Assembly (NCBI RefSeq): GCF_002104515.1
Contig: NZ_NBOE01000003.1
Location: 186,001-250,000 of the forward strand
Length of the DNA: 64,000 nucleotides
Origin: Colwellia polaris
GTDB taxonomy: Bacteria > Pseudomonadota > Gammaproteobacteria > Enterobacterales > Alteromonadaceae
Direction: 5' to 3'
Within the stretch, counting starts at the first letter, position 1. Each line of letters begins with the position of its first letter. Shown in pieces: positions 5,832 through 20,103 of this stretch. Under the pieces are notes generated by a model, which ran no database searches, was not told the DNA's origin, and saw only the letters and a program-made list of their open reading frames with translations. The translations under genes were made by a program, and so were the position numbers.

Positions 5832-6671
5832 ATGTTAAACAACATAAAAAAAATGAGTTTAATCGCTACGTTATTAGTATCGTCGTCAGCTATGGCTAGT
5901 GTAACAACTACATCAGGCCATTTTGGTGGTGTTTCTGATACTGGTAGCAACTTCAATCAATTTGAAGTTACTTTCGGTGGCGTTGATGTTAACGTTTCTG
6001 GTTGGTCAGATACTGCTGGTAACACTGCATCAAACTCAGAAGACTTCGACCCAACGATCGAGCGTGCAGTAGACTTTGATAAAAATGGTTATGGCTGGTC
6101 GATGGAAAATACTGATGAGATGAACTCACGTAATTGTGGTTATTCTCATTCTGCAGACAATTTTGGTTCTAATTGTAACTATCAAGATTACGACTTTTTT
6201 TTGTTAGAGTTTTCAGAAGCGGTAACGTTAAATAGTGCTACATACAGTTGGGTAAGTGCTGGCTCATCAGGAACCCAAGTTAGTGTTGCTGCATTAGACT
6301 CAAATGCACTTAATGGTAGTACATGGCAAGATGTAAAAGATAATCAGACAATCGCTTCAAACTGGTCTCAAATGCGTTATTCTGGCACTGGTGGTCAAGC
6401 TTACTATACTAACTTCGGCCAAACAGGTAGTGGTAATGCTTCAAACTTAGCGAATACAAGCTCGAACTTCTGGTTAATTGGTGCATTAAATGCAGCCGTA
6501 TTTGGTGGTAACACAAACTGGGAAGGTAATGACGGCATGAAGTTGGCTGGTATTACTTTTACTACTGGCTCACAAGCACCAGCAACAAGCGTACCTGAGC
6601 CTAGCTCAATTGCATTGTTTGGTTTAGCCATTGCAGGTTTATTTGCTTCTAGCCGTAAAAAGCTAAAGTAA
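5832..6671 (+). CDS. PEP-CTERM sorted extracellular protein (XDP1-like)
   Basis: A 279-residue exported protein. Residues 1-22 form a signal peptide ending in SAMA. The C-terminus has the tripartite PEP-CTERM signal: VPEPSS at about 254-259, a hydrophobic helix (IALFGLAIAGLFA) and a basic tail (SSRKKLK), which is recognised by an exosortase that cuts and anchors the protein at the surface. The body is rich in Gly, Ser, Asn and aromatics and resembles the exosortase-dependent surface protein family XDP1. The exosortase itself is not in the window, but the next gene encodes the PEP-CTERM system protein PrsT, which supports a working system in this organism. Confidence 0.85.
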   Translation: MLNNIKKMSLIATLLVSSSAMASVTTTSGHFGGVSDTGSNFNQFEVTFGGVDVNVSGWSDTAGNTASNSEDFDPTIERAVDFDKNGYGWSMENTDEMNSRNCGYSHSADNFGSNCNYQDYDFFLLEFSEAVTLNSATYSWVSAGSSGTQVSVAALDSNALNGSTWQDVKDNQTIASNWSQMRYSGTGGQAYYTNFGQTGSGNASNLANTSSNFWLIGALNAAVFGGNTNWEGNDGMKLAGITFTTGSQAPATSVPEPSSIALFGLAIAGLFASSRKKLK

Positions 6672-9615: not shown

Positions 9616-10256
9616 CAATTCCCTTTTAAATTAACACACAAATAATATAGAGAGTTTTCCTGTATCGACACTTTGTTTTATTAGTATTTAAGACCCAGTA
9701 ACAAACTTTGCTACTGGGTCTTTTTTATTTCACGCTGTTTCATCTTCGTTATTTCCCCTGCTAAAACCTACCCCGCACTTATATCGCCTTAGCGCTAAAT
9801 TTCACAATAAATAATCAAAATCTCGCCCAGAGTATTATTAAAATAAGTTATCAGTAAATAAGAGGTATAAGTCGCGTTTTATGGTAATTACTAAGTGTTA
9901 AAAAGTTAACCTTTATTCAATAAAGCTAACGGTTAACATTGAAGAGATGTGATTTAGTCATAGTAGATTAGAGGTGACAAACACAATACGTTAATTAGAT
10001 TAGCTAGATGTTTGAAGGTGAACAGTAAAATAGCCATTATATTGAAAGCTTACGAACGTTATTTTAATTATTATTATTGTGCCAACTGTCGATTATAAAT
10101 TATTCGATACTTATTAATTTGGCTACAGAGCCTATTTTTCTGCAGCAATTTTTAGATATTGTTGCAAGGTCAAAGACACTGTTACCACAGATGTTACTAA
10201 AAGTTTAAATCACCGCTAATATAATTCAAACAGTTGCATAAAACTTCAGACATAAA
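9616..10256. other. Intergenic region downstream of prsT
   Basis: AT-rich sequence with the prsT terminator at 9690-9726; beyond that no gene, RNA or repeat is recognised up to the duplicated tRNA-Leu 3' end. Confidence 0.5.
9690..9726 (+). terminator. Rho-independent terminator after prsT
   Basis: Stem AAGACCCAGTA / TACTGGGTCTT at 9690-9722 followed by T6. Confidence 0.9.
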
Positions 10257-10342
10257 AAAACCGGAACACCTTAATTATAAAGGTTATTCCGGTCTTTACC
10301 GGTTCTTATAGAACCTGTATGTGGTGCGATAGAGAGACTCGA
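10257..10342 (-). other. attL: displaced 3' end of tRNA-Leu plus its terminator
   Basis: On the - strand this reads as the T-loop to CCA end of tRNA-Leu, then a spacer and a terminator hairpin (CCGGAATAACC...GGTGTTCCGG, then T7). It matches 19949-20040 next to the intact tRNA. The core GATAGAGAGACTCGA (+ strand) is identical at 10328-10342 and 20026-20040; identity stops abruptly at 10343. One base of the acceptor stem has been lost here (GCGATAG versus GCAGATAG), as expected of a fragment no longer under selection. Confidence 0.85.
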
Positions 10343-10394
10343 CAACCAAAATAAAACATTGATTTAATTGAATTAAACCAACCAAAAACTTTTC

Positions 10395-10416
10395 AGTACC
10401 GCCTTTAGTACTCCTA
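10395..10416 (+). promoter_or_regulatory. Candidate integrase/excisionase arm-type sites, left end
   Basis: AGTACCG (10395-10401) followed by AGTACTCCTA (10407-10416), 50-75 bp inside the left core. The same words occur inside the right end (19859-19907). Matching short sites near both ends are typical of arm-type binding sites of tyrosine integrases. Confidence 0.5.
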
Positions 10417-10717
10417 CAACAAATAATCATATATTTGCACCTATATGCAGAGTAAAAATAAACACATTTTATTTAAAATATTTTCAATCTATTTTAATTA
10501 TTCTATAAATATTTAGACGAGTGTTCGGATTAATATGGGATTGCACATATTTGCACACGCGTTAACTATACAATAGCCTTTAACTTTTCAATAGAAAATT
10601 ATAGTGTCAGAAGCTTTGTAGTTATGATAAAAAGAGGAGTATTGAAAAGTATGAATATACTTTTTAATAATATAACACACTCATTATATTTCAAACTTAA
10701 TAAGGATTATTAAAGTT

Positions 10718-11095
10718 ATGTTCAAAACATTCTTACCTAAAAGCGTTTTACTTCTCGTTGCTGTACTTTCTTTTTCAGGCTGTACTTATAGTTCTAAAGT
10801 AGATTATGGAAATCAATTTACTTCTGAGCAGGTTGCTCAAATAAAGAAAAACAAAACAACTTCAACCGAACTTTTACAAATATTTGGCGAGCCTAGTATT
10901 AAAAGTGTTTTAAATGAAACAGAAGAAAAGTGGGTGTACTCATATACTGGTGGTACTGGCTCAGTTCAAACTTTCACTATGAAAACAACGTCTGATATGT
11001 CAACTCACATGCTTGATATTTTAATTAGAGATGGGGTAGTTATTAATTTTGCAGAAACTAACACTACTCACAATATGAATGTATCGACTCAATAA
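10718..11095 (+). CDS. Small lipoprotein with BamE/SmpA-like fold, element cargo
   Basis: A 125-residue exported lipoprotein: hydrophobic signal followed by the lipobox FSGC with Cys22. The mature part has the pattern FTSEQVAQIKKNKTTSTELLQIFGEPS ... WVYSYTG seen in BamE/OmlA-type small outer-membrane lipoproteins. It lies inside the element, ahead of the capsid genes, with its own terminator at 11142-11169, so it is probably transcribed alone, for example in the integrated state. Phages often carry lipoproteins that alter receptors or block superinfection; that role is inference. It could also be a captured host gene. Confidence 0.7.
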   Translation: MFKTFLPKSVLLLVAVLSFSGCTYSSKVDYGNQFTSEQVAQIKKNKTTSTELLQIFGEPSIKSVLNETEEKWVYSYTGGTGSVQTFTMKTTSDMSTHMLDILIRDGVVINFAETNTTHNMNVSTQ

Positions 11096-11141
11096 CAACA
11101 TGATCGATTAAGATATAACCACCTAACATATTTTATTATCA

Positions 11142-11169
11142 AAGCCCTTAACATCTAAGGGCTTTTTTT
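11142..11169 (+). terminator. Rho-independent terminator after the lipoprotein gene
   Basis: Stem AAGCCCTTA / TAAGGGCTT with an ACATC loop followed by T7. Confidence 0.9.
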
Positions 11170-11180
11170 ATTTACCTTAA

Positions 11181-11336
11181 TCACTCCAACAAATAAAAAT
11201 CAGCCAGTTCAACAGAGCCAAAGATTTTCTCTAAATTTTTTTCAATTAAAGCTTTCTGTTCTGGGGGTAAGTAATCAGTTTTGATTAACTGTAACCATGT
11301 GCGAACAAGCACTTTGGGAGGGATAAAGCTTTCCAT
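11181..11336 (-). CDS. Small protein of 51 residues, unknown function
   Basis: On the - strand, AAGGATGAATGAAC precedes an ATG that opens a 51-residue frame beginning MESFIPPKVLVRTWLQLIK and ending ADFYLLE. The translation is protein-like: balanced composition, an amphipathic Leu/Lys/Glu-rich second half and a good ribosome binding site. It sits antisense-oriented between the lipoprotein gene and the capsid operon. No family is recognised. It could be a small regulator or an anti-phage/helper-interaction factor, but nothing in the sequence decides this. Confidence 0.5.
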   Translation of the reverse strand: MESFIPPKVLVRTWLQLIKTDYLPPEQKALIEKNLEKIFGSVELADFYLLE

Positions 11337-11400
11337 GTTCATTCATCCTTGAATTATTTATTAGCTAAAGCTTAGTGGAAATTTAACAACAAGCAATAAA

Positions 11401-11436
11401 AAGCCCCTTGGTGGTCGCAAGGGGCTTACTTTTTTC
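11401..11436. terminator. Strong hairpin, terminator-like in both directions
   Basis: AAGCCCCTTG ... CAAGGGGCTT (11401-11427), followed by TACTTTTTT on the + strand and TTTTTATT on the - strand. It separates the small - strand gene from the region ahead of the capsid genes. Confidence 0.65.
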
Positions 11437-11656
11437 AGAGAAATAAAACCAGTTAACTTAACAATAAAAAGTGATTGAGGTGAATAAAGCCTCAGTTGTA
11501 AAAATAGCGTATTTAAATCGTTAAATCAAACCGAGACAGAATTAAATTTGATAAAAACCCATTTGGTCGTGTTTTATTTGGTTTGCGGCAAATAATATGC
11601 CAGAATCTACCTGTAAACAGAATTTAATTCGATTTAACTCATTACAGGTGAATAAA
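11437..11656. other. Leader region of the capsid operon
   Basis: About 220 bp between the hairpin and the capsid start. It is presumed to contain the late promoter, but no convincing -10/-35 pair stands out. A small inverted repeat TGAGG/CCTCA is present near 11477-11496. Confidence 0.35.
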
Positions 11657-12805
11657 ATGAAACGATTATTAGAACTACGTCAAAACAAAGCCGCTTTAGT
11701 CAAAAGCGCAAACTCAATTATGTCTAAAGTTGAAAATGAAAAGCGTTCAATGACAGGCGAAGAAAATACACAACTTACTGAGTTACGTTCTCAGCTTACT
11801 TCCATCAATAGCCACATTGACCATGCACAAGCGTTAGCTGATGAAGAACGCTCGTTAATTGGCGAAAACACAGAGCAGCGCAGCACTGACAAGCCAAGCA
11901 ATGCTGAAATGCGTACCTTTGTGAAAACTGGTGATAGTCGCTCGCTAAGTGTTGGTGTTAATGCTGATGGTGGCTTTGCAGTTGTTCCAAGCTTGGATAA
12001 AGTAATTGCCGTACAAATGCGTGATCAAGTAACGCTGATGGGCTTAGCTACTCCTAAAACTATTAGTTCAAGCTCTTATGAGCAAATTGTTAGTGTTGGT
12101 GGTGGTCAGTCGGGTTGGGCTGCTGAGTCAGAAAGCCGAAGTGAAACAGCTACAAGTAAAATGAATAAAGTGACCATTGCAGTTAATGCTTTATATGCTT
12201 ATCCAAAAGCTACAATTGAAATTTTAGACCAAAGTGATTTTAATATCGAAGAATGGTTAGCAAGTGAAACAAGCGCACAATTTGCCGAAGATCTAAACAA
12301 AGCTCTTTTCATTGGTACTGGTACTGGACAACCAAAAGGCATTTTAACTTATACCCGTTCTGCAACGCCTGCTTTCGGTCAAATTAAAGAAATTACTTCT
12401 ACTGCTAGTGGTGTTTTTGATCTTGATGATGTTCGCGCACTTAAAAAAGCATTGCCAAAAGCATACCGTAAAGCCGCCTCATACATTATGAATGATAACG
12501 CTGCTTATGCCTTGCTAGGTATTAAAGATACTACAGGCCGGTATATTTATCTTGAAGCTGTTACGGCTGGCGAACCTGATACGCTATTTGGTAAGCCCGT
12601 ACATATAGACGAACAAATGCCAGATGATGAAATTTTGTTTGGTGATATTGCCCGTGGCTATACGGTTGTTTCTCATACCACTGGTACAAAAATGCTCAAA
12701 GATATGATCACGAGTCCTGGCTATGTCAAAATGCACAACACCGCTTATTACGGTGGCGGTGTTACGGACAGCAAAGCTTTAGTTATTCTTAAGAAAGCTG
12801 CTTAG
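11657..12805 (+). CDS. Phage major capsid protein, HK97 family
   Basis: A 382-residue capsid protein. The N-terminal ~90 residues are a charged, helical scaffold-like delta domain (MKRLLELRQNKAALVK...), followed by the HK97 fold with typical stretches: GGFAVVP, ATPKTISSSSYE, AYPKATIEILDQSDFNIEEWL, GTGTGQPKGIL, ALPKAYRKAASYIMN and GKPVHIDEQMP. The start at 11657 is preferred over an in-frame ATG 60 bases upstream because AGGTGA lies just ahead of it. It forms the icosahedral shell; the protease encoded 10 bp downstream should remove the delta domain. Having its own capsid sets this element apart from satellites that only remodel helper capsids. Confidence 0.92.
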   Translation: MKRLLELRQNKAALVKSANSIMSKVENEKRSMTGEENTQLTELRSQLTSINSHIDHAQALADEERSLIGENTEQRSTDKPSNAEMRTFVKTGDSRSLSVGVNADGGFAVVPSLDKVIAVQMRDQVTLMGLATPKTISSSSYEQIVSVGGGQSGWAAESESRSETATSKMNKVTIAVNALYAYPKATIEILDQSDFNIEEWLASETSAQFAEDLNKALFIGTGTGQPKGILTYTRSATPAFGQIKEITSTASGVFDLDDVRALKKALPKAYRKAASYIMNDNAAYALLGIKDTTGRYIYLEAVTAGEPDTLFGKPVHIDEQMPDDEILFGDIARGYTVVSHTTGTKMLKDMITSPGYVKMHNTAYYGGGVTDSKALVILKKAA

Positions 12806-12815
12806 GGGGTAAGTA

Positions 12816-13355
12816 ATGGAAATTAGAGCAACCAACATCAAAGCCGATAACATGAAACTTATTGGCTCGGTTGCTTTTAATTCTGTTAGTCGTGACCTAG
12901 GTGGTTTTGTCGAAGTGATTAAGCCAACAAGTTTTAGTGATAGCTTAGCCAGTGGTGAGCCAGTCAAAGCAATAGTTGAACATAACCATGATTTGCTTTT
13001 AGGAAAAACCACCAGTAACACGCTCGAGTTATCAGAAAACGCTACAGAATTAGAAGTAACTATTCATTTAAGTAATAAAATTCAAGCACACGTTGATCTA
13101 TACGAACAAGTTAAACGTAGGGATTTAGATTCTCTGTCGTTTGGCTTTGTGGCTGATGTCGAAGAATGGGATCACGAGGCAAGTCCACCAATTCGATATA
13201 TCTCAAAAGCACGCCTTTATGAAATAACAGTTTGTGCAGTTGGTGCTTATGCTGCCAATAAAGTTGATGCCCGTAGTTTATTAAATTCTGCTATCGCTCA
13301 AACGTCTGCTATTCAAACGCTAAAAGCACAATTTCAATTACTGGAGCTAATCTAA
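12816..13355 (+). CDS. Prohead maturation protease, HK97 family (S78)
   Basis: A 179-residue protein with the family pattern: GGFVEVIKPTSF (29-40), a His cluster EHNHD (55-59) carrying the catalytic His, and LDSLSFGF (104-111) carrying the catalytic Ser, then the YEITVCAVGAYAANKVDAR segment (about 135-153). It cleaves the capsid delta domain during head maturation. It lies between capsid and portal genes with 10 and 1 bp gaps, so the three form one translation unit. GGGGG before the ATG is a strong ribosome binding site. Confidence 0.9.
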   Translation: MEIRATNIKADNMKLIGSVAFNSVSRDLGGFVEVIKPTSFSDSLASGEPVKAIVEHNHDLLLGKTTSNTLELSENATELEVTIHLSNKIQAHVDLYEQVKRRDLDSLSFGFVADVEEWDHEASPPIRYISKARLYEITVCAVGAYAANKVDARSLLNSAIAQTSAIQTLKAQFQLLELI

Positions 13356-13356
13356 T

Positions 13357-14535
13357 ATGTGGCCTTTTAAACGAAATATTGAAACTCGCAGTAAAACATT
13401 AGATCAGCTTTTAGCAAGTCAAAATGTACGAAGCACAAGCGGTATTAACGTGAATACTGTTAGTGCTTTATCGCTACCAAGAGTTAAACGCTGCATTGAT
13501 CTTATTGCACAAAATATTGCTTCACTACCAATTGAAGTTTACAAAGCAAACAAGATTCAAAAACAATCGGCAATAGCGAAGTTATTGGCAAAGCCGAACA
13601 GCTACCAGACTTCATACGAATTTAAAGAATTGCTTATGCGTGATGCTTTAACGCATGGTGATGGCTTTATATACATTGAGCATAATACTTCTGGCGCTGC
13701 TATTGGTTTGCATATTTTGCCTGCAACGAGTGTTCAAGTTAAAGCGTTGCCTAATTATCGAATAGGGTATACATACACACAGCAAGGCGCAGATAGTAGA
13801 CCATCAAACACTTTTAACTATAATGCTGATGAAGTAATACACTTGAAAAATTCACCAATTTCAGGGTCATTAACAGGCACTAGCCCACTTACCCAGTGCC
13901 GCGACTCTATAGGAGAATCATTAGCTAATCGCAATTGCTCAAGTAACCTTTTTGCCAATGGCTTGGCTGCATCTTTTGTTCTAGAAACTGACATGGTGTT
14001 TAAAGATAGCAATGCCGTTACTAGATTAAAAAAGGATATTGAAGATCGCTACAGTTCAACCTCTAAAAAAGGTGGCACGATGGTTCTTGAAAACGGTTTG
14101 AAGCTTAGAAAGGTTGATGCTAGTTCAGTTGATTCAGAGCTTTTGGCTACTCGTCAGGCAGGTAACAATGACATAGCCGAAATGTTCAATATTCCTTTAG
14201 GTATGTTTGCTGATCAACCTGATGCACAAGCATTACGCCAATTTTACAATATAACGCTAAAACCTTGGTTAAAGGCAATTGAAGAACAGTTTAACAGTAA
14301 GCTTATATTCGGCACTGGCTATGTAGCGTTTGATAGTTCTGAACTCTTAAAGGCTTCACCTGCTGAACGCTTTGAGTCTCACTCTAAAGGTATTGCTAGT
14401 GGTGTACTCACCATTAACGAGGCTAGAGCTAAAGAAGGCTTAGAACCATCTTCTAGCCAGTTTAGTGATGAATGTATCGCTTCATACCATACGCAAGCTG
14501 TTGCAGCTTTAAATGATCAAAGTGGCAATGATTAG
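13357..14535 (+). CDS. Phage portal protein, HK97 family
   Basis: A 392-residue protein matching the HK97-type portal: VSALSLPRVKRCIDLIAQNIASLPIEVYK near the N-terminus, SYEFKELLMRDALTHGDGFIYIE, EVIHLKNSP, GTSPLTQCRDSIGESLANRNCSSNLFANG and DIAEMFNIPLGMF. The portal dodecamer occupies one vertex, receives DNA from the terminase and joins the tail. No head-tail connector gene follows, so the tail interface would have to be served by helper proteins. Length is normal for the family. Confidence 0.92.
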   Translation: MWPFKRNIETRSKTLDQLLASQNVRSTSGINVNTVSALSLPRVKRCIDLIAQNIASLPIEVYKANKIQKQSAIAKLLAKPNSYQTSYEFKELLMRDALTHGDGFIYIEHNTSGAAIGLHILPATSVQVKALPNYRIGYTYTQQGADSRPSNTFNYNADEVIHLKNSPISGSLTGTSPLTQCRDSIGESLANRNCSSNLFANGLAASFVLETDMVFKDSNAVTRLKKDIEDRYSSTSKKGGTMVLENGLKLRKVDASSVDSELLATRQAGNNDIAEMFNIPLGMFADQPDAQALRQFYNITLKPWLKAIEEQFNSKLIFGTGYVAFDSSELLKASPAERFESHSKGIASGVLTINEARAKEGLEPSSSQFSDECIASYHTQAVAALNDQSGND

Positions 14536-14687
14536 ATATATTCTCTAAGTAAAGATCGATAATGTTGATATTAATAATAAAAAAATGTTAGGGGGGCTGC
14601 TTAAAAGTAGCATTAATAGTGGCCTCTATCCCCGTTTTCCTCGTTTCTGACTGAATTCGGCTCAAACTTTTTTTCCATGGAGTAAAA

Positions 14688-15080
14688 ATGAATATAAAAC
14701 CGCCATTATTTGTTCGTACACGCGAGCAAAAGAAATATTTCAAAGCCGTACTGGCAGAATTGAATATTAATAAAGTCGATATAAAAACAAGTGACCGTTT
14801 TGCACTCGGTACGTTGGCGATTAATCTGGCTTTGATAGATCAATCTATGATCTCATTAGCTGAAAATGGCACAGTTATGGAAAGTGCCACTGAAAAAGGA
14901 GTTACTAGAAAAGCTAACCCTGCTTTGAAAATGTTGTCTGAAGCTCAGCTTGCTGTACGGGCATATTATAAAGAATTTCAAATGTCACCTAATAGCAGAG
15001 CCAGTAATAGTTATAGTTTGCCAAGTGCGCCACTTGATACTTACGGCATTGCATCTATTCGAGTTAACCGCCCAAAATAA
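14688..15080 (+). CDS. terS: Terminase small subunit, P27 family
   Basis: A 130-residue protein with the P27-type C-terminal pattern NPALKMLSEAQLAVRAYYKEFQMSPNSRAS preceded by a helical N-terminal half. It should recognise the packaging site and recruit a large terminase. A good GGAG lies ahead of the ATG. In phages it precedes the large subunit; here none follows, and the next gene is convergent. A satellite TerS that redirects a helper's large terminase to satellite DNA is the obvious reading, but that is inference. Confidence 0.82.
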   Translation: MNIKPPLFVRTREQKKYFKAVLAELNINKVDIKTSDRFALGTLAINLALIDQSMISLAENGTVMESATEKGVTRKANPALKMLSEAQLAVRAYYKEFQMSPNSRASNSYSLPSAPLDTYGIASIRVNRPK

Positions 15081-15112
15081 CAAAGGTGGCACTCAAAATA
15101 GCGTTACTTTTA

Positions 15113-15400
15113 TTTATCCCGATTTATCCCGTTTTTTATCCCAACGGGATAAAAAGTAAAGTACCTGTATTTAAAGGGGTGTAGGCAATATATACATAAT
15201 AAATATATATATTTATCCCTTTATCCCTATACTCCCCCTCTGTTTTTATTAGTACATATTATTTTCTATTTTTAATTTAGCCGAGTTGTTTTTTATATAC
15301 CCCTAGAAAACGGGATAAATGGGATAAATGGGATAAAAACAATAATTATCAATAAGTTATGAGTTATCTCGGAGTGAGAAAACGGGGTAAATGGGATAAA
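15113..15400. repeat. Cluster of GGGATAAA repeats, candidate iteron replication origin
   Basis: Ten exact copies of the octamer in 288 bp. As TTTATCCC: 15113, 15123, 15135, 15212, 15220. As GGGATAAA: 15146, 15312, 15321, 15330, 15393. A variant GGGGTAAA is at 15384. Several are spaced 8-12 bp apart, and three in a row are exactly 9 bp apart. A very AT-rich tract (15184-15211) lies between the two groups. The pattern and the position next to the replication ATPase gene fit an iteron-type origin. Confidence 0.7.
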
Positions 15401-15490
15401 AGTAATAATTATCATAAACTTACAATCACTTGTTGTGATAGAGATAATGTCAAAATAAGTAAAAGAAGCAGTGTTTTTAGTAAAAGAAGT

Positions 15491-15513
15491 AAAAAAGGGG
15501 CTAAAAAGCCCCT
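15491..15513 (-). terminator. Rho-independent terminator of the DUF3987 gene
   Basis: On the - strand GGGGCT TTTT AGCCCC (15497-15512) followed by T6. It overlaps the end of the coding region and closes the leftward early operon just before the repeat cluster. Confidence 0.85.
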
Positions 15514-16949
15514 GTATGATTAATTTTTTTTCCATTTATTTGTATTTTACCCATTATTTCCAAGCCTTGAATAACATTGTTGTATAAATTATCAAACATA
15601 GCTTTTTGCCTTGGATTCTTAAACGACTTTGAAACACGCTGCTTTAATTTTGAAGCATATAAACCATTATCAGCACCTTTAGTAAATCGTAAGACTCTAG
15701 CCGTGATTTCTTCTGTAAAATTTTCAGGATTTAAAAATGTGCTTTCTTTTGATAATGACTGTATCGCCAAAAATTCACAATCCGCAATACTTCTAAGGCA
15801 AATTGCTAAAGCGTAGCGACAATCATCGAGTTTAATCATGCCACTTTCCAAAGCTAGCAATGATGACAACACCTTAACTCGTTCAAAAATTCGGGCGTAC
15901 AAAGGGCCAGTACGTTCATTGTTACGATATACCTCTTGGTCATAATATGATCGTACATAATCAAGAAAGAATTTCGCATCTTCATCGGCATTGACTGGTA
16001 CATTTTCAGAGTCTTTAATTGATTTTAAGCGCTCGAAAATTTCAGGCTTAATGTTATGGCTAGAATTGTCAGAAAGTGGCTGTCTACCATCATCGTTTCG
16101 AAATATAATAGCTCGAGCAAGTAGTCCACTTTCTAGATTTTGCTCACAAATTAATGAATCTAAATTTTTTGGTGTACTGGTTCCCGCAAAGCTGACATTA
16201 ATACCTGTAAAACCATTTTCGATACAATTAAGTGATCTTTCTATTTTTTGCGCTTTGCGCTCTAACCTAATCCGTTTAATGTCATCAACCTCTTTTTCAA
16301 TTAATCGATTGACGAAATTTAATTCTTTAACCCCACGCTCAGTAAACTCTCGCTTATGCAGGCCTGAAAGCGTATATACTCGAGCGGTACTCATTTTTAA
16401 GAGTTCGTCACCGATACCAGAAATATAATGTTGTGCGTTTGAATTTTCTAGCCCTCTAAAGAGTCCTTGGCACTCATCTACAATATAGAGTGACTTGCCA
16501 TCCCCATCTATTAAATTGGTTATCATATCTTTGTCAGAACGAGGCTTATCGAATATAAATTTAGATAAGGAAAGTTGATTAGCAACCGTAGCACAAAACG
16601 CTTGCCCCAAATCTTTGCCTGACCCTGTTTCCGAGATCATGATGGTAAATAAATTTAGTTTTGAACCATCAAAACCACGATTATTGCCAGCCACTAGAGA
16701 CAATAATTGCAGCCCATAAAGCGGATAACTCAGTGGCAATAATCTACTTGCTTGCGCTTTCATATTGTCGCAAATAAGACCTAGTAAACTATTCTTATAT
16801 GGCTTTGTTATATCAATATCACTAACATCAATAATGGTACTGTTAAAGCTATTTTCTTCTGTCTCTGGCATGTTGAATTTAGCAAAGGCTTTATCTATGC
16901 CTACCATACTTTCATCAATTACTTTTTGAACTTGTTCAGAGTTGACCAC
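15501..16949 (-). CDS. DUF3987-family replication ATPase (helicase/primase-like)
   Basis: A 482-residue P-loop ATPase with Walker A SETGSGKD (106-113), Walker B SLYIVDE (153-159) and the downstream GTSTPKNLDSLI and ESGLLARAIIF segments typical of DUF3987/YfjI-like proteins of phages and islands. Such proteins occupy the place of a replicative helicase or primase in satellites. No separate primase catalytic domain is recognised, so the element may use host or helper primase. It ends beside the GGGATAAA cluster, a natural binding target. It is the last gene of the integrase-alpA operon. Confidence 0.75.
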   Translation of the reverse strand: MVNSEQVQKVIDESMVGIDKAFAKFNMPETEENSFNSTIIDVSDIDITKPYKNSLLGLICDNMKAQASRLLPLSYPLYGLQLLSLVAGNNRGFDGSKLNLFTIMISETGSGKDLGQAFCATVANQLSLSKFIFDKPRSDKDMITNLIDGDGKSLYIVDECQGLFRGLENSNAQHYISGIGDELLKMSTARVYTLSGLHKREFTERGVKELNFVNRLIEKEVDDIKRIRLERKAQKIERSLNCIENGFTGINVSFAGTSTPKNLDSLICEQNLESGLLARAIIFRNDDGRQPLSDNSSHNIKPEIFERLKSIKDSENVPVNADEDAKFFLDYVRSYYDQEVYRNNERTGPLYARIFERVKVLSSLLALESGMIKLDDCRYALAICLRSIADCEFLAIQSLSKESTFLNPENFTEEITARVLRFTKGADNGLYASKLKQRVSKSFKNPRQKAMFDNLYNNVIQGLEIMGKIQINGKKINHTGAF

Positions 16950-16967
16950 TTTTTTTTCCCCTAAAAG

Positions 16968-17582
16968 CTATAAAGAGTATAAAGATCTAAAAAAGCTTTT
17001 AATGCCTTTTTTAGGCTGCTCAGCGTTAGATTTTTGTTTTTGTGCTTGATTAAATCGTGTTACTTGATCTTTATGAAGCTCAATTTCTTCAGCGGTGCTT
17101 TCATCTTCGCAAAAAACGATCCCGTCTCCATCTGCTAGTGAATAAAATTTATATGGCTTGTGAAAGTATGCTTTATCTAAACGAATAGCTTTTTTAAATA
17201 AGTCATTTATAAAAACCGTGTACGCTTCAACTTCATTTCTAAAAGGGTTTGTGTTGTCGCAAAATTTAACCGCATTATCGAATTTCAATTTAAGAGCTAA
17301 GGCCTCAGTATCTGTTAGAAATATTGGTAAATGTCGAACCGTACCGCCCATATCGTATACGATTCTGTATTGCGGAGACTGATTCCAAAGGTCGATAAAG
17401 TACCCACTTTCTTGCTCGTTAGATTTTCTCAATACGAGCTTTAACCAAGGTATATGTATTAATTGAGCCTCGGCTTTGGCAGCCCATTGGCGCGCAACCT
17501 CTTTATTGTTGGCAATATCTTGAAAATGCTGAATTTGTTCTCTCAGCGCTTTACCAGTGAGATCGTGATTTAGATGTTTCAT
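16968..17582 (-). CDS. Unknown protein of the satellite replication module
   Basis: A 204-residue soluble, mixed alpha/beta protein with no recognised family. It is encoded 3 bp after alpA and 18 bp before the DUF3987 gene, so it is probably co-translated with both and involved in replication or its control. The C-terminal ~40 residues are charged and Gln/Lys-rich (VTRFNQAQKQKSNAEQ) and end in KSFFRSLYSL, a plausible short contact peptide. Lack of signal peptide or membrane segments places it in the cytoplasm. Confidence 0.6.
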   Translation of the reverse strand: MKHLNHDLTGKALREQIQHFQDIANNKEVARQWAAKAEAQLIHIPWLKLVLRKSNEQESGYFIDLWNQSPQYRIVYDMGGTVRHLPIFLTDTEALALKLKFDNAVKFCDNTNPFRNEVEAYTVFINDLFKKAIRLDKAYFHKPYKFYSLADGDGIVFCEDESTAEEIELHKDQVTRFNQAQKQKSNAEQPKKGIKSFFRSLYSL

Positions 17583-17585
17583 TGG

Positions 17586-17843
17586 TTAAATATCCTTCCG
17601 TTGCGCTTCAAGACTAATGACAAGAGTTCTAATTTCGTCGTCAGTTTTGCCTGCTATTCTGGCCTTGAGAACTTCCTTGATCTCATGTTCAAGATAACCA
17701 ACGGACCTTGCCCCTAATGAAATTGGAGAACAAAGCAACCCTTCTTTTATTTGTGATTGGAATGTAGATTTGCAAATAGGTAATAAACCTAATGCTTCTG
17801 GCTTGCGTAAAACTTGAATACTAGCTTGATTTGTATAACTCAT
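17586..17843 (-). CDS. alpA: AlpA-family DNA-binding regulator
   Basis: An 85-residue winged-helix protein of the AlpA/MerR-like excisionase fold: LPICKSTFQSQIKEGLLCSPISLGARSVGYLEHEI then ARIAGKTDDEIRTLV. AlpA proteins activate excision and early transcription of P4-like elements and are the usual master switch of Gram-negative satellites. The helper signal that would relieve repression cannot be read from sequence. An inverted repeat (17900-17926) lies just upstream, a possible operator. Confidence 0.88.
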   Translation of the reverse strand: MSYTNQASIQVLRKPEALGLLPICKSTFQSQIKEGLLCSPISLGARSVGYLEHEIKEVLKARIAGKTDDEIRTLVISLEAQRKDI

Positions 17844-17899
17844 AATTAACCCTCTTTGGCTTTAATAAAACGTGTTGAGGGCATTAGAGTCTTTTAATG

Positions 17900-17926
17900 C
17901 TTTGGTAACCTAGCGTGCTACCAAAG
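17900..17926. promoter_or_regulatory. Inverted repeat upstream of alpA, candidate operator or terminator
   Basis: CTTTGGTA (17900-17907) and TACCAAAG (17919-17926) with an 11-bp centre, in the only sizeable gap (88 bp) of the leftward operon. No T-run follows on the - strand, so an operator is more likely than a terminator. Confidence 0.4.
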
Positions 17927-17931
17927 TTTGC

Positions 17932-18609
17932 TTATTTATTCTTAAAATAATTTTGGCGTAATGTTTCCACTGATAAAGACTTTAATTGAAATAACTCTTT
18001 TCCATATTCGGCTGCATTTATTCGTGCCTCTGTAAGATTTCTTTTTTTTCCTGATTCTTTTATTTGGCACTTATCAGAGTTGAAATATTCCCACAAAATA
18101 TCAATTTGTTGATCATTAAGTTTTGTTTCATTGTTGATGTTTTTAGTAGAACCTTTTGAGATAGCAGGCTCGTTTATGCTATAAATGAATCTAGAAAATC
18201 TCCCTACCAAGTTCAATGCCGACGTGTAGGAGTTTTTAAAACTCCCCTCTTTGCTATACGCTCTGCATGCATCAATTTCAGATAAACAAAATGAAGCCTC
18301 TATAGTTCCTTTAGTGTCTAAATGCTTATTTCTAAGTGTTATTGGTAGATATTCCCCTTTTGGTACTGATGTTGGTAAATTGTTGTCTTTGAGCCATTCA
18401 AATAATGTACTTTCGATATCTAAAAGCATTTTTTCATGATCAGGAACATGCATAATACTCTTTAGCTTATCAGCTGAGTCATTAATATTAACGTCTGTTT
18501 CATACATAATATTCAACGATGTTCTTTTATAGCTAGAACCATATTTAATAAAAGTTTTCGTCGTATCACCAGACTTTGTTGTTTTTACTTTTCGCTTATT
18601 AACCATCAT
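17932..18609 (-). CDS. Unknown protein coupled to the integrase
   Basis: A 225-residue protein whose start overlaps the integrase stop (ATGA), so it is translationally coupled. The basic N-terminus (MMVNKRKVKTTKSGDTTKTF) and basic C-terminal stretch (KESGKKRNLTEARINAAEYGKELF) suggest nucleic-acid binding. No family is recognised. Position between integrase and alpA suggests a role in excision, immunity or helper sensing, but this is not shown by the sequence. Confidence 0.55.
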   Translation of the reverse strand: MMVNKRKVKTTKSGDTTKTFIKYGSSYKRTSLNIMYETDVNINDSADKLKSIMHVPDHEKMLLDIESTLFEWLKDNNLPTSVPKGEYLPITLRNKHLDTKGTIEASFCLSEIDACRAYSKEGSFKNSYTSALNLVGRFSRFIYSINEPAISKGSTKNINNETKLNDQQIDILWEYFNSDKCQIKESGKKRNLTEARINAAEYGKELFQLKSLSVETLRQNYFKNK

Positions 18610-19853
18610 TCACCAACCACTTTAAACTGCTTAACATTAAAGGCTGAAGAAACTTTTGAATTTTCGGCATTTTCTATATGCTCAGACCAAAAAGCCATCA
18701 AAACTCGCCTGCGCTCAAGGTACTGAGATCGATTATAAGCTGATCTGACTTTGTTTTCGTCTTGATGGCTTAATGCCGCCTCTATCACATCTCCATCAAA
18801 GCCAAGCGAATTAAGGGTTGTACTAGCTAAACTTCTTAAGCCATGCCCTACTAGACGGCCTTTGTAGCCCATACGACCTAATGCTTTATTTACTGTTTCT
18901 GGGTTACTTCCCTTAGTAAGTTGTCTATCTGATGGAAAAATATGTTCACAATGTCCGCTTATCGGCTTCATTCGCTCTAATATCTCTAGTACTTGAGGAG
19001 TTAATGGGATTGTATGTGGTTTACCCCTTTTCATTCGCTCATCGGGAATTAACCAAAGCTTGTTTTCAAAGTCTATTTCACTCCAAGTTGCCCCCGCAGC
19101 TTCATTTGGGCGACACATGCAATGTAACTGAAATTCGATTAAGCAACGAGTGGTTAGCTTAATACTGGCATAACTTATCGTTTTCATTAACTGAGGCAGT
19201 TCTTCAGGCTCAAGCGTTGGCATATGCTTAACCTTAGGTTTATCAAATGCGGCTCTAATACCTGACAATGGGTTTGCATGTATTAAGCCTGTATTCACAG
19301 CATATTTCATTACAGCATTAAGGTTGCCGGCAATTTTATCAACAGTTTCTAAACTTCCTTTTGCTGCTAGAGCTTTAAGCGTTTGAATAACTTCTGGCGC
19401 TGACAATTTCGCAATAGGTCTTTTACCAATTTTTGGAAAAACATGTTTTTCAAAGTTACGCCATAATGACTTTGCAGTAGTTTCTGCAATTGTTTTCTTC
19501 TTTTTATCAAACCAATCTGAGGCGACCACCTCTAATGTATTGTTAGCCGCTATTTTATTTTTACGTGCTAAATCGTCTTTGAATTCTTTTGGGTCGATAT
19601 CTTCAGAGATTTGCGTGCGAGCGATACGCTTTTTTTCTCTTGCTGCTGCTAGTGTAACTTCAGGAAAAGAACCAAAGCCGATTGAAGTTCTAGTTTTGGT
19701 GTGAGGTTTATAATAATCAAATAACCATGTTTTAGATCCGTTTGGGCGAATCCTTAGCTTCAAGCCTTCACCATCATTTAATTTATACTCTTTGTCTTTT
19801 GCTTTAGCATTCTTAACTGCTGTATTGGTCAGTTTTATAGTGTTCCTAGCCAT
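18606..19853 (-). CDS. int: Tyrosine site-specific integrase, P4 type
   Basis: A 415-residue integrase with an N-terminal arm-binding DUF4102 domain (1-90), a SAM-like core-binding domain (about 105-195) and a catalytic domain. Catalytic residues are visible: Arg248 in CRPNEA, Lys278, His337 and Arg340 in HGLR, His363 in LSHQ and Tyr373 in AYNRS. The start codon lies about 170 bp from the attR core, the usual arrangement for an integrase using the 3' end of a tRNA. It recombines the T-loop/acceptor segment of tRNA-Leu. Confidence 0.95.
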   Translation of the reverse strand: MARNTIKLTNTAVKNAKAKDKEYKLNDGEGLKLRIRPNGSKTWLFDYYKPHTKTRTSIGFGSFPEVTLAAAREKKRIARTQISEDIDPKEFKDDLARKNKIAANNTLEVVASDWFDKKKKTIAETTAKSLWRNFEKHVFPKIGKRPIAKLSAPEVIQTLKALAAKGSLETVDKIAGNLNAVMKYAVNTGLIHANPLSGIRAAFDKPKVKHMPTLEPEELPQLMKTISYASIKLTTRCLIEFQLHCMCRPNEAAGATWSEIDFENKLWLIPDERMKRGKPHTIPLTPQVLEILERMKPISGHCEHIFPSDRQLTKGSNPETVNKALGRMGYKGRLVGHGLRSLASTTLNSLGFDGDVIEAALSHQDENKVRSAYNRSQYLERRRVLMAFWSEHIENAENSKVSSAFNVKQFKVVGE

Positions 19854-19858
19854 TTTTT

Positions 19859-19907
19859 GGAGTACCGAAATTTGTGCTATTTGCTGGTACTCCTAAAAGT
19901 ACTCCTA
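19859..19907. promoter_or_regulatory. Candidate integrase arm-type sites, right end
   Basis: GGAGTACC (19859-19866, inverted), GTACTCCTA (19887-19895) and AGTACTCCTA (19898-19907) between the integrase start and the attR core. They match the words at 10395-10416 near the other end. Confidence 0.5.
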
Positions 19908-19948
19908 AAACATCTGGATTTCAATACCTCGCAATGGTGCTTAATGGG

Positions 19949-20040
19949 CATAAAAAAACCGAAAGCTCTTTATAATTAGAAGCTTTCGGTCTTTATCGGT
20001 TTTTATAAAACCTGTATTTGGTGCAGATAGAGAGACTCGA
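19949..20040 (-). other. attR: tRNA-Leu 3' end with element-borne terminator
   Basis: Holds the core GATAGAGAGACTCGA (20026-20040), the CCA end of the intact tRNA and a terminator (CCGAAAGC ... GCTTTCGG, then T7 on the - strand) at about 19952-19990. This side is supplied by the element and restores the tRNA gene and a replacement terminator. Confidence 0.85.
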
Positions 20041-20103
20041 ACTCTCACGCCCTAAGGCACCACCCCCTCAAGGTGGCGCGTCTACCAATTCCGCCATATC
20101 TGC
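20019..20103 (-). tRNA. leuU: tRNA-Leu (anticodon GAG)
   Basis: An 85-nt class II tRNA including an encoded CCA: acceptor GCAGATA paired with TATCTGC, D-arm GGCGGAATTGGTAGACGC, anticodon stem CCACC/GGTGG around loop TTGAGGG, a long variable arm and the T-loop TTCGAGTC. Anticodon GAG reads CUC and CUU. The location beside secG matches leuU of E. coli. It is the insertion target of the adjacent element. Confidence 0.95.

Follow-up and report, generated by a model that had tools for sequence, protein, structure and literature searches.

A 9.7-kb element lies in the chromosome of Colwellia polaris, inserted at the 3' end of a tRNA-Leu gene. It was analysed within a stretch of 64,000 nucleotides (contig NZ_NBOE01000003.1, positions 186,001 to 250,000), here called the window. 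We judge it fairly likely, from sequence comparison, that the element is an intact integrated phage satellite with its own prohead, portal and small terminase subunit (TerS), and that it would borrow the large terminase subunit (TerL), neck and tail of a helper phage. The element, its boundaries, gene set, recurrence and selection were read from the sequence, and we infer its induction, the assembly of its particles and the borrowing of a motor.

Head genes without a large terminase

Every gene named in a first-pass annotation of the window is an intact open reading frame (ORF), and its integrase, AlpA, capsid, protease, portal and TerS all have Pfam matches. The minus strand, read from attR, encodes the integrase, a 225-aa protein, AlpA, a 204-aa protein and a primase-like ATPase. 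Convergent with these, the plus strand encodes a BamE-like lipoprotein, the capsid protein, the protease, the portal and TerS. The ATPase had been labelled DUF3987, a name that we do not keep: it has no Pfam match at E≤1, and PHROGs describes it as a DNA primase. The annotation had also seen nothing else of a phage in the element. This stands for TerL, connector and tail genes, none of which was found, but it passed over the BamE-like gene, the 204-aa and 225-aa genes, a 53-aa ORF and a cluster of iterons.

The missing motor was searched for with several queries. Capsid-forming phage-inducible islands (cf-PICIs) are defined by carrying all head and packaging components and taking only tails from the helper (PMC10690885). 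Queries for TerL, connectors, HNH endonuclease and tail proteins were taken from LR881103 and Pmp8, two cf-PICI-like records that had been submitted as phages. None gave a credible match to the element by tblastn (E limit 20, best E 0.28). Among these queries, the four for connectors reached a best E of 0.39, in a search that a very diverged connector could escape. There are no ORFs between portal and TerS. A hidden Markov model (HMM) of three TerLs, run without a positive control, gave no hit at E≤10 to any of the six elements described below. By tblastn, the same three TerLs detected a TerL in 68 of the 73 listed capsid loci that extend 8 kb or more downstream; these 73 were drawn from at least 160 loci in two scans that partly share elements. 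The profile phrog_2 was also tried for TerL and discarded, as it has a blank description and matched weakly in 6 of 6 carrier genomes and 11 of 14 control genomes.

We then compared the host family. A capsid profile matched 15 of its 395 genomes at E≤1e-10, and six carriers are distinct at E≤1e-190: the window genome, G469, G395, G436, G470 and G364. G469 is of the same genus as the window, G395, G436 and G470 are of one genus, and the carriers span two genera other than that of the window. The profile rows already included the window and the Aliiglaciecola loci L057 and L058 (G395 and G470); G469, G436 and G364 are new finds. Capsid, protease and portal are together in all six elements, and neither TerL nor connectors were found by these queries in any of them. 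The architecture of about 10 kb therefore recurs without TerL, a test that the first-pass annotation had itself named. Repeat spacing is 9,698 bp in the window, 10,480 in L237, 9,348 in L057, 10,003 in L058, 10,041 in L238 and 10,308 in L239. The direct repeats are perfect in L057 (27 bp), L058 (50 bp) and L239 (52 bp), and imperfect, at 90% identity, in L237 (over 61 bp) and L238 (over 51 bp). One element is inserted at tRNA-Leu, four at tRNA-Val and one between flanking ORFs that we read as hisS and ispG. At least three integrase types occur among the carriers; those of L057 and L058, for example, are 20% identical.

In a class-wide sample of 369 genomes, the capsid matched at E≤1e-60 only in the window's own genome and, more weakly (about 1e-69), in two others. 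The window primase found one other genome among 295 of the order, at 30% identity. Scans of viral contigs with single window proteins (capsid, primase, TerS) gave no confirmed relative. Capsid alignments against viral contigs did find relatives, and an alignment of Aliiglaciecola-type TerS found only one of them, L233, again. In this IMG/VR contig portal, HNH and TerS are followed by a relative of a DUF6988 gene of L057, which stands in the place of TerL. Two further IMG/VR contigs, L138 (732-5999) and L234 (1-5630), read capsid-protease-portal-HNH-TerS-TerL, with connectors not found, and are intermediate between the window element and cf-PICIs. L236 was dropped from the intact list because its TerS frame is interrupted by a stop codon; L137 and L235 were not counted, as their contigs end before the TerS position.

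The DUF6988 gene lies at the far end of L057 (13770-14459) and of L058 (14338-15048), and the L057 copy matches the PADLOC candidate PDC-S52; its position is a probable cargo slot for phage defence. L237 (2214-12754), of the same genus as the window, carries an ankyrin/membrane protein gene with partial, sub-cut-off matches to MzaA and a PADLOC candidate.

Selection and descent of the head genes

Between the window and L237, the ratio of nonsynonymous to synonymous rates (dN/dS) is 0.083 for the capsid and 0.155 for the protease. Both genes of the window are under purifying selection. Five pairs among L057, L058, L239 and L233 give 0.03-0.07 for capsid, protease and portal in the comparisons that allowed an estimate of dS (0.033-0.045 in such pairs of L057, L058 and L239), and 0.09-0.17 for TerS. 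The L058/L238 pair is too close to inform (0-0.19 in head genes), and pairs with L236 or between groups are mostly saturated. Low dN/dS in elements that lack TerL indicates that the head genes are maintained there.

These results bear on the idea that the element is an immobile remnant of a cf-PICI or prophage, from which TerL, connectors and tail genes were deleted. Loci of the cf-PICI type usually have TerL, as the 68 of 73 listed show, the window repeats are imperfect, and truncated cf-PICI copies exist. A remnant should have broken or truncated genes and head genes free of selection; the window ORFs are intact and its capsid and protease constrained. The five TerL-less loci of the 73 are L057, L058, L059, L110 and L136. 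The last three are the truncated copies, and they look different: in L059 and L110 head genes are broken or absent, and L136 runs from capsid, protease and portal to a single connector gene, then to unrelated genes and an integrase fragment. The same reduced set in 6 of 6 carriers, in other genera, at three kinds of site and with at least three integrase types, together with low dN/dS, speaks against decay, which we regard as improbable.

We also placed the capsid in a quick tree of 46 sequences drawn from 180 (30 by choice, 16 by dereplication), in which several phage rows have long branches. The cf-PICI capsids form one clade (SH-aLRT 100) and the marine satellites, with the window capsid among them, another (81), while phage and prophage capsids fall apart from both (75). 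The marine group lies next to the cf-PICI clade, a join that is weakly supported. Because L138 and L234 lie inside the marine group, the absence of TerL takes three changes on this tree; loss of TerL, or its gain and then loss, would have happened repeatedly. How many changes there were is uncertain, as L236, labelled TerL-less, has the interrupted TerS frame and its contig stops 377 bases beyond TerS. The first-pass annotation had held that relatives with a TerL and tail genes, deleted here, would make the element a decayed prophage. Relatives with TerL exist, and the nearest of them are not prophages but cf-PICIs and two metagenomic contigs; satellites are therefore the probable setting in which TerL was lost, or gained and then lost.

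In the main rival explanation the satellite remodels helper capsids: its own capsid protein, along with protease and portal, would assemble jointly with the helper capsid into smaller mixed shells, as does Ccm of SaPIbov5, a capsid-protein homologue and the sole SaPIbov5 protein reported in small phi12 shells (PMC8569155). The satellite PISP TG93 encodes capsid protein E, a head protease and TerS, and its authors infer interference with head assembly (PMC13230959). A satellite-like island of the same family with a lone HK97 capsid, described next, would also suit remodelling. However, SaPIbov5 contributes Ccm alone to the shell, and here protease and portal stand beside the capsid in all six elements, with all three genes under purifying selection in related elements. 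In the quick tree the window capsid also groups near cf-PICI capsids and apart from phage capsids, and it has less than 60% identity to each of the 420 phage records it matches. Remodelling is accordingly an unlikely account, and we continue to prefer a satellite that builds its own prohead.

The island in question came from the nine weaker family matches. The 20-kb regions of seven were fetched (L246 among them, G450 and G654 not), and five have TerL near the capsid, as prophages do. The island (L242, 9313-17624) sits beside tmRNA with an integrase, AlpA-like matches, an HTH_36 protein, a DnaB helicase and the lone HK97 capsid. No protease, portal or terminase was matched in it and no flanking direct repeat was found; it is possibly a Ccm-like remodeller.

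The head region itself has a break. From about 11,200 to 13,417, a stretch with the 53-aa ORF, capsid, protease and portal start, the DNA of the window is 88% identical to that of L237. Similarity then collapses, and the two portals are 40% identical. An exchange of portal and TerS, fitted to a new helper motor, would explain this break. The window capsid is 93% identical to that of L237, 47% to that of L057 and 36-43% to cf-PICI-type capsids other than L057 and L058.

Ends, features and a candidate packaging site

The tRNA-Leu direct repeats claimed for the element are present in imperfect form: a 14-bp exact core, GATAGAGAGACTCG, lies within 93 bp of 81% identity between the two copies. The tRNA-Leu region was located in 17 genomes of the genus. 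The left copy is 82-94% identical to sequence 3' of tRNA-Leu in seven loci from other genomes of the genus (L264-L266, L268, L269, L271 and L272), matching best in L265 (94%) and L264 (93%), against 81% for its own right copy. The TPR gene to the left of the element in the window has a counterpart in L264 about 1 kb from tRNA-Leu, as at an empty site; no TPR match was found in the other tRNA-Leu loci, within the stretch available per locus. A megablast of the DNA against phage records gave no match. The features are listed in Table 1.

Table 1. Positions of features in the window
Feature	Position	Strand	Evidence or remark
attL	10251..10341	none	displaced native tRNA-Leu 3' end and terminator-like sequence; exact core 10328-10341
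BamE-like lipoprotein, probable cargo	10718..11095	+	PF04355 E=1e-5; phrog_3135 E=6e-23
53-aa ORF, divergent from capsid gene	11181..11342	-	similar ORF L237:11775-11948
HK97-type major capsid protein	11597..12805	+	PF05065 E=1e-61; TIGR01554
Prohead serine protease (S78)	12816..13355	+	PF04586 E=3e-31
Portal protein, HK97 type	13357..14535	+	PF04860 E=7e-79; TIGR01537
Non-coding gap before TerS, candidate packaging site by position alone	14536..14687	+	
Terminase small subunit, P27/Terminase_4 family	14688..15080	+	PF05119 E=2e-10, 41.4 bits, cut-off 24.7; predicted-structure mean pLDDT 50
Iteron cluster, 10 GGGATAAA, candidate replication origin	15113..15400	none	tandem repeat
Primase/helicase-like ATPase	15501..16949	-	phrog_25777 E=1e-47; best PHROGs families named DNA primase
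204-aa protein, position of PICMI up1	16968..17582	-	no family assigned; predicted-structure mean pLDDT 44
AlpA-type regulator	17586..17843	-	PF05930 E=1e-4
225-aa protein, overlaps int by ATGA, position of PICMI iolg	17932..18609	-	no family assigned
Tyrosine integrase	18606..19853	-	PF00589 E=5e-28; PF22022, PF13356
attR	19949..20039	none	element-side terminator-like sequence and tRNA-Leu 3' end; exact core 20026-20039
tRNA-Leu(gag), integration target	20019..20103	-	

The motif GGGATAAA occurs 12 times in the window, against an expected mean of 2.2, and none of 100 shuffled windows has 12. Ten of the copies lie between TerS and primase, a candidate replication origin. The BamE-like lipoprotein has a 40% identical relative amid prophage genes (L052, 15926-16282), and in L138 the gene after TerL is an ORF of about the same length that looks like a lipoprotein (6026-6409); a role in superinfection exclusion is possible.

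The gap before TerS, a putative cos site by its position and by comparison with HK97-like phages, was compared with five cf-PICI gaps. Local alignment was used in 45 comparisons of 500 shuffles each, uncorrected for their number. For the L058 gap 0, 0, 2, 2 and 45 shuffles scored as high, with none in both the L042 and L046 comparisons. The gaps of L234 (0-2), L239 (1-9), L233 (0-16) and L057 (0-85) are also cf-PICI-like, and those of L236 (48-389), L138 (6-379) and L237 (132-430) have no convincing likeness. The gap is well conserved within the Aliiglaciecola-type group, L236 included. A site shared by window and L237 scores 46 for one chosen stretch, where 200 shuffles reach at most 43; over the whole element 18 of 300 shuffles reach 46. 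A packaging site common to the two is suggestive at most.

Several observations weigh against an intact satellite with a borrowed motor. The window gap is unlike cf-PICI gaps (93-440 of 500 shuffles as high). TerS, held to be part of the element, is present in five of the six and absent from the nearest relative, L237. The window TerS matches NCBIfam sm_term_P27 below the model cut-off (24.8 against 45.6 bits). The window/L237 portal comparison gives dN/dS 0.22 with dS saturated (2.9), so the selection estimate for the window covers capsid and protease only. L138 and L234 have TerL within the capsid group. Finally, the window repeats differ outside the core, and the left copy is short of one base of the tRNA end. 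The insertion may therefore be old, or its att sequence foreign.

Relation to known satellites and to a helper phage

The element resembles cf-PICIs in its integrase, AlpA and primase-like gene, and its HK97-type capsid, protease, portal and TerS follow the cf-PICI order. It has its own major capsid, maturation protease, portal and small terminase. It lacks the large terminase, the HNH endonuclease (present in relatives L239 and L233) and the head-tail connectors, and for these three components we do not file it as a cf-PICI. At 9.7 kb it is also smaller than the cf-PICI average of 14 kb (PMC10803314), and it would need the helper's motor and neck besides the tail. It probably works like a cf-PICI with greater dependence. 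The phage records L031/L032, vB_KppS-Ant (LR881103) and Pmp8 (OR544139), have cf-PICI gene content, and one Xenorhabdus anantnagensis genome holds at least five cf-PICI-type capsid loci (L062, L069, L088, L106 and the truncated L110).

The other half of the element recalls PICMIs. The order of integrase, ATGA-overlapping gene, alpA, one gene and primase is that of PICMI115, with the unknown genes matched by position (PMC10803314). PICMIs are described there as having no identifiable capsid or packaging genes, lying beside fis and being packaged as concatemers in full-sized helper particles. The window element differs in its site, tRNA-Leu, and in its capsid and packaging genes; the PICMI primase models PF13148 and PF19263 do not match its ATPase. 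PISP TG93 and PICIs with capsid protein E likewise have capsid, head protease and TerS, with no TerL mentioned in the excerpt (PMC13230959). PISP TG93 differs in its capsid family (PF03864) and in being a plasmid; no portal is mentioned in that excerpt, and its proposed role is interference with the assembly of helper heads. SaPIbov5 Ccm is likewise a satellite-borne homologue of the helper capsid protein, but it is a single protein that redirects helper shells, in which the excerpt reports no other SaPIbov5 protein (PMC8569155). In excerpts of open-access PMC literature we found no description of a portal-bearing satellite without TerL, and no open-access PMC paper was found that joins 'phage satellites' and 'Alteromonas'.

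A prophage with TerL in the same genome, as the first-pass annotation had suggested, was not found with PF03354, PF03237 or PF04466. Each family gave 0 of 6 in the carrier genomes, some of which are drafts (the lambda-type PF05876 was not searched); controls gave 3, 6 and 3 of 14 genomes. This makes an incoming phage the more likely helper, and it likely arrives by infection, as for PICMIs. A second satellite or a plasmid could instead supply TerL and connectors in trans, which would account for the retention of a portal in six elements that all lack TerL. No TerL of the three families was found in the carriers, with the same limits of search, and we give this arrangement a very small chance. 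The window TerS comes closest to the TerS of Vibrio phages of 47 kb (36.8% identity, E=6e-18; over 80% of its length for phage 168E36-1). Among the genes annotated in these phages are TerL, portal, protease, capsid and a connector. A link from this TerS to the PICMI helper Phi115 was set aside as a lead only: the best match is labelled VP115E34_1, and no Phi115 record is among the 60 of 84 records listed.

For the satellite with borrowed motor, the cycle would begin with helper infection, upon which AlpA would turn on excision by the integrase and its overlapping gene. The primase-like ATPase would replicate the satellite from the iteron origin. Its capsid protein, protease and portal would build its own procapsid, and its TerS would bring the large terminase of the helper to the satellite's DNA and then to its portal. 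Neck and tail would come from the helper, and the chimeric particles would carry the satellite to new cells, where it would integrate at tRNA-Leu.

We lean slightly towards regarding these elements as a distinct satellite class of the Alteromonadaceae, with their own capsid and portal and an outsourced motor and neck. Capsid, protease and portal would be fixed, and TerS, HNH and TerL would come and go with the helpers' motors; the portal/TerS region of the window looks exchanged relative to its sister element L237, with capsid and protease retained. If so, the assembly line would be divided in a new place, with PICMI-like full dependence on one side and the near-autonomy of cf-PICIs on the other. 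A foreign TerL could then dock on a satellite portal, and the specificity between portal and motor would become directly testable.

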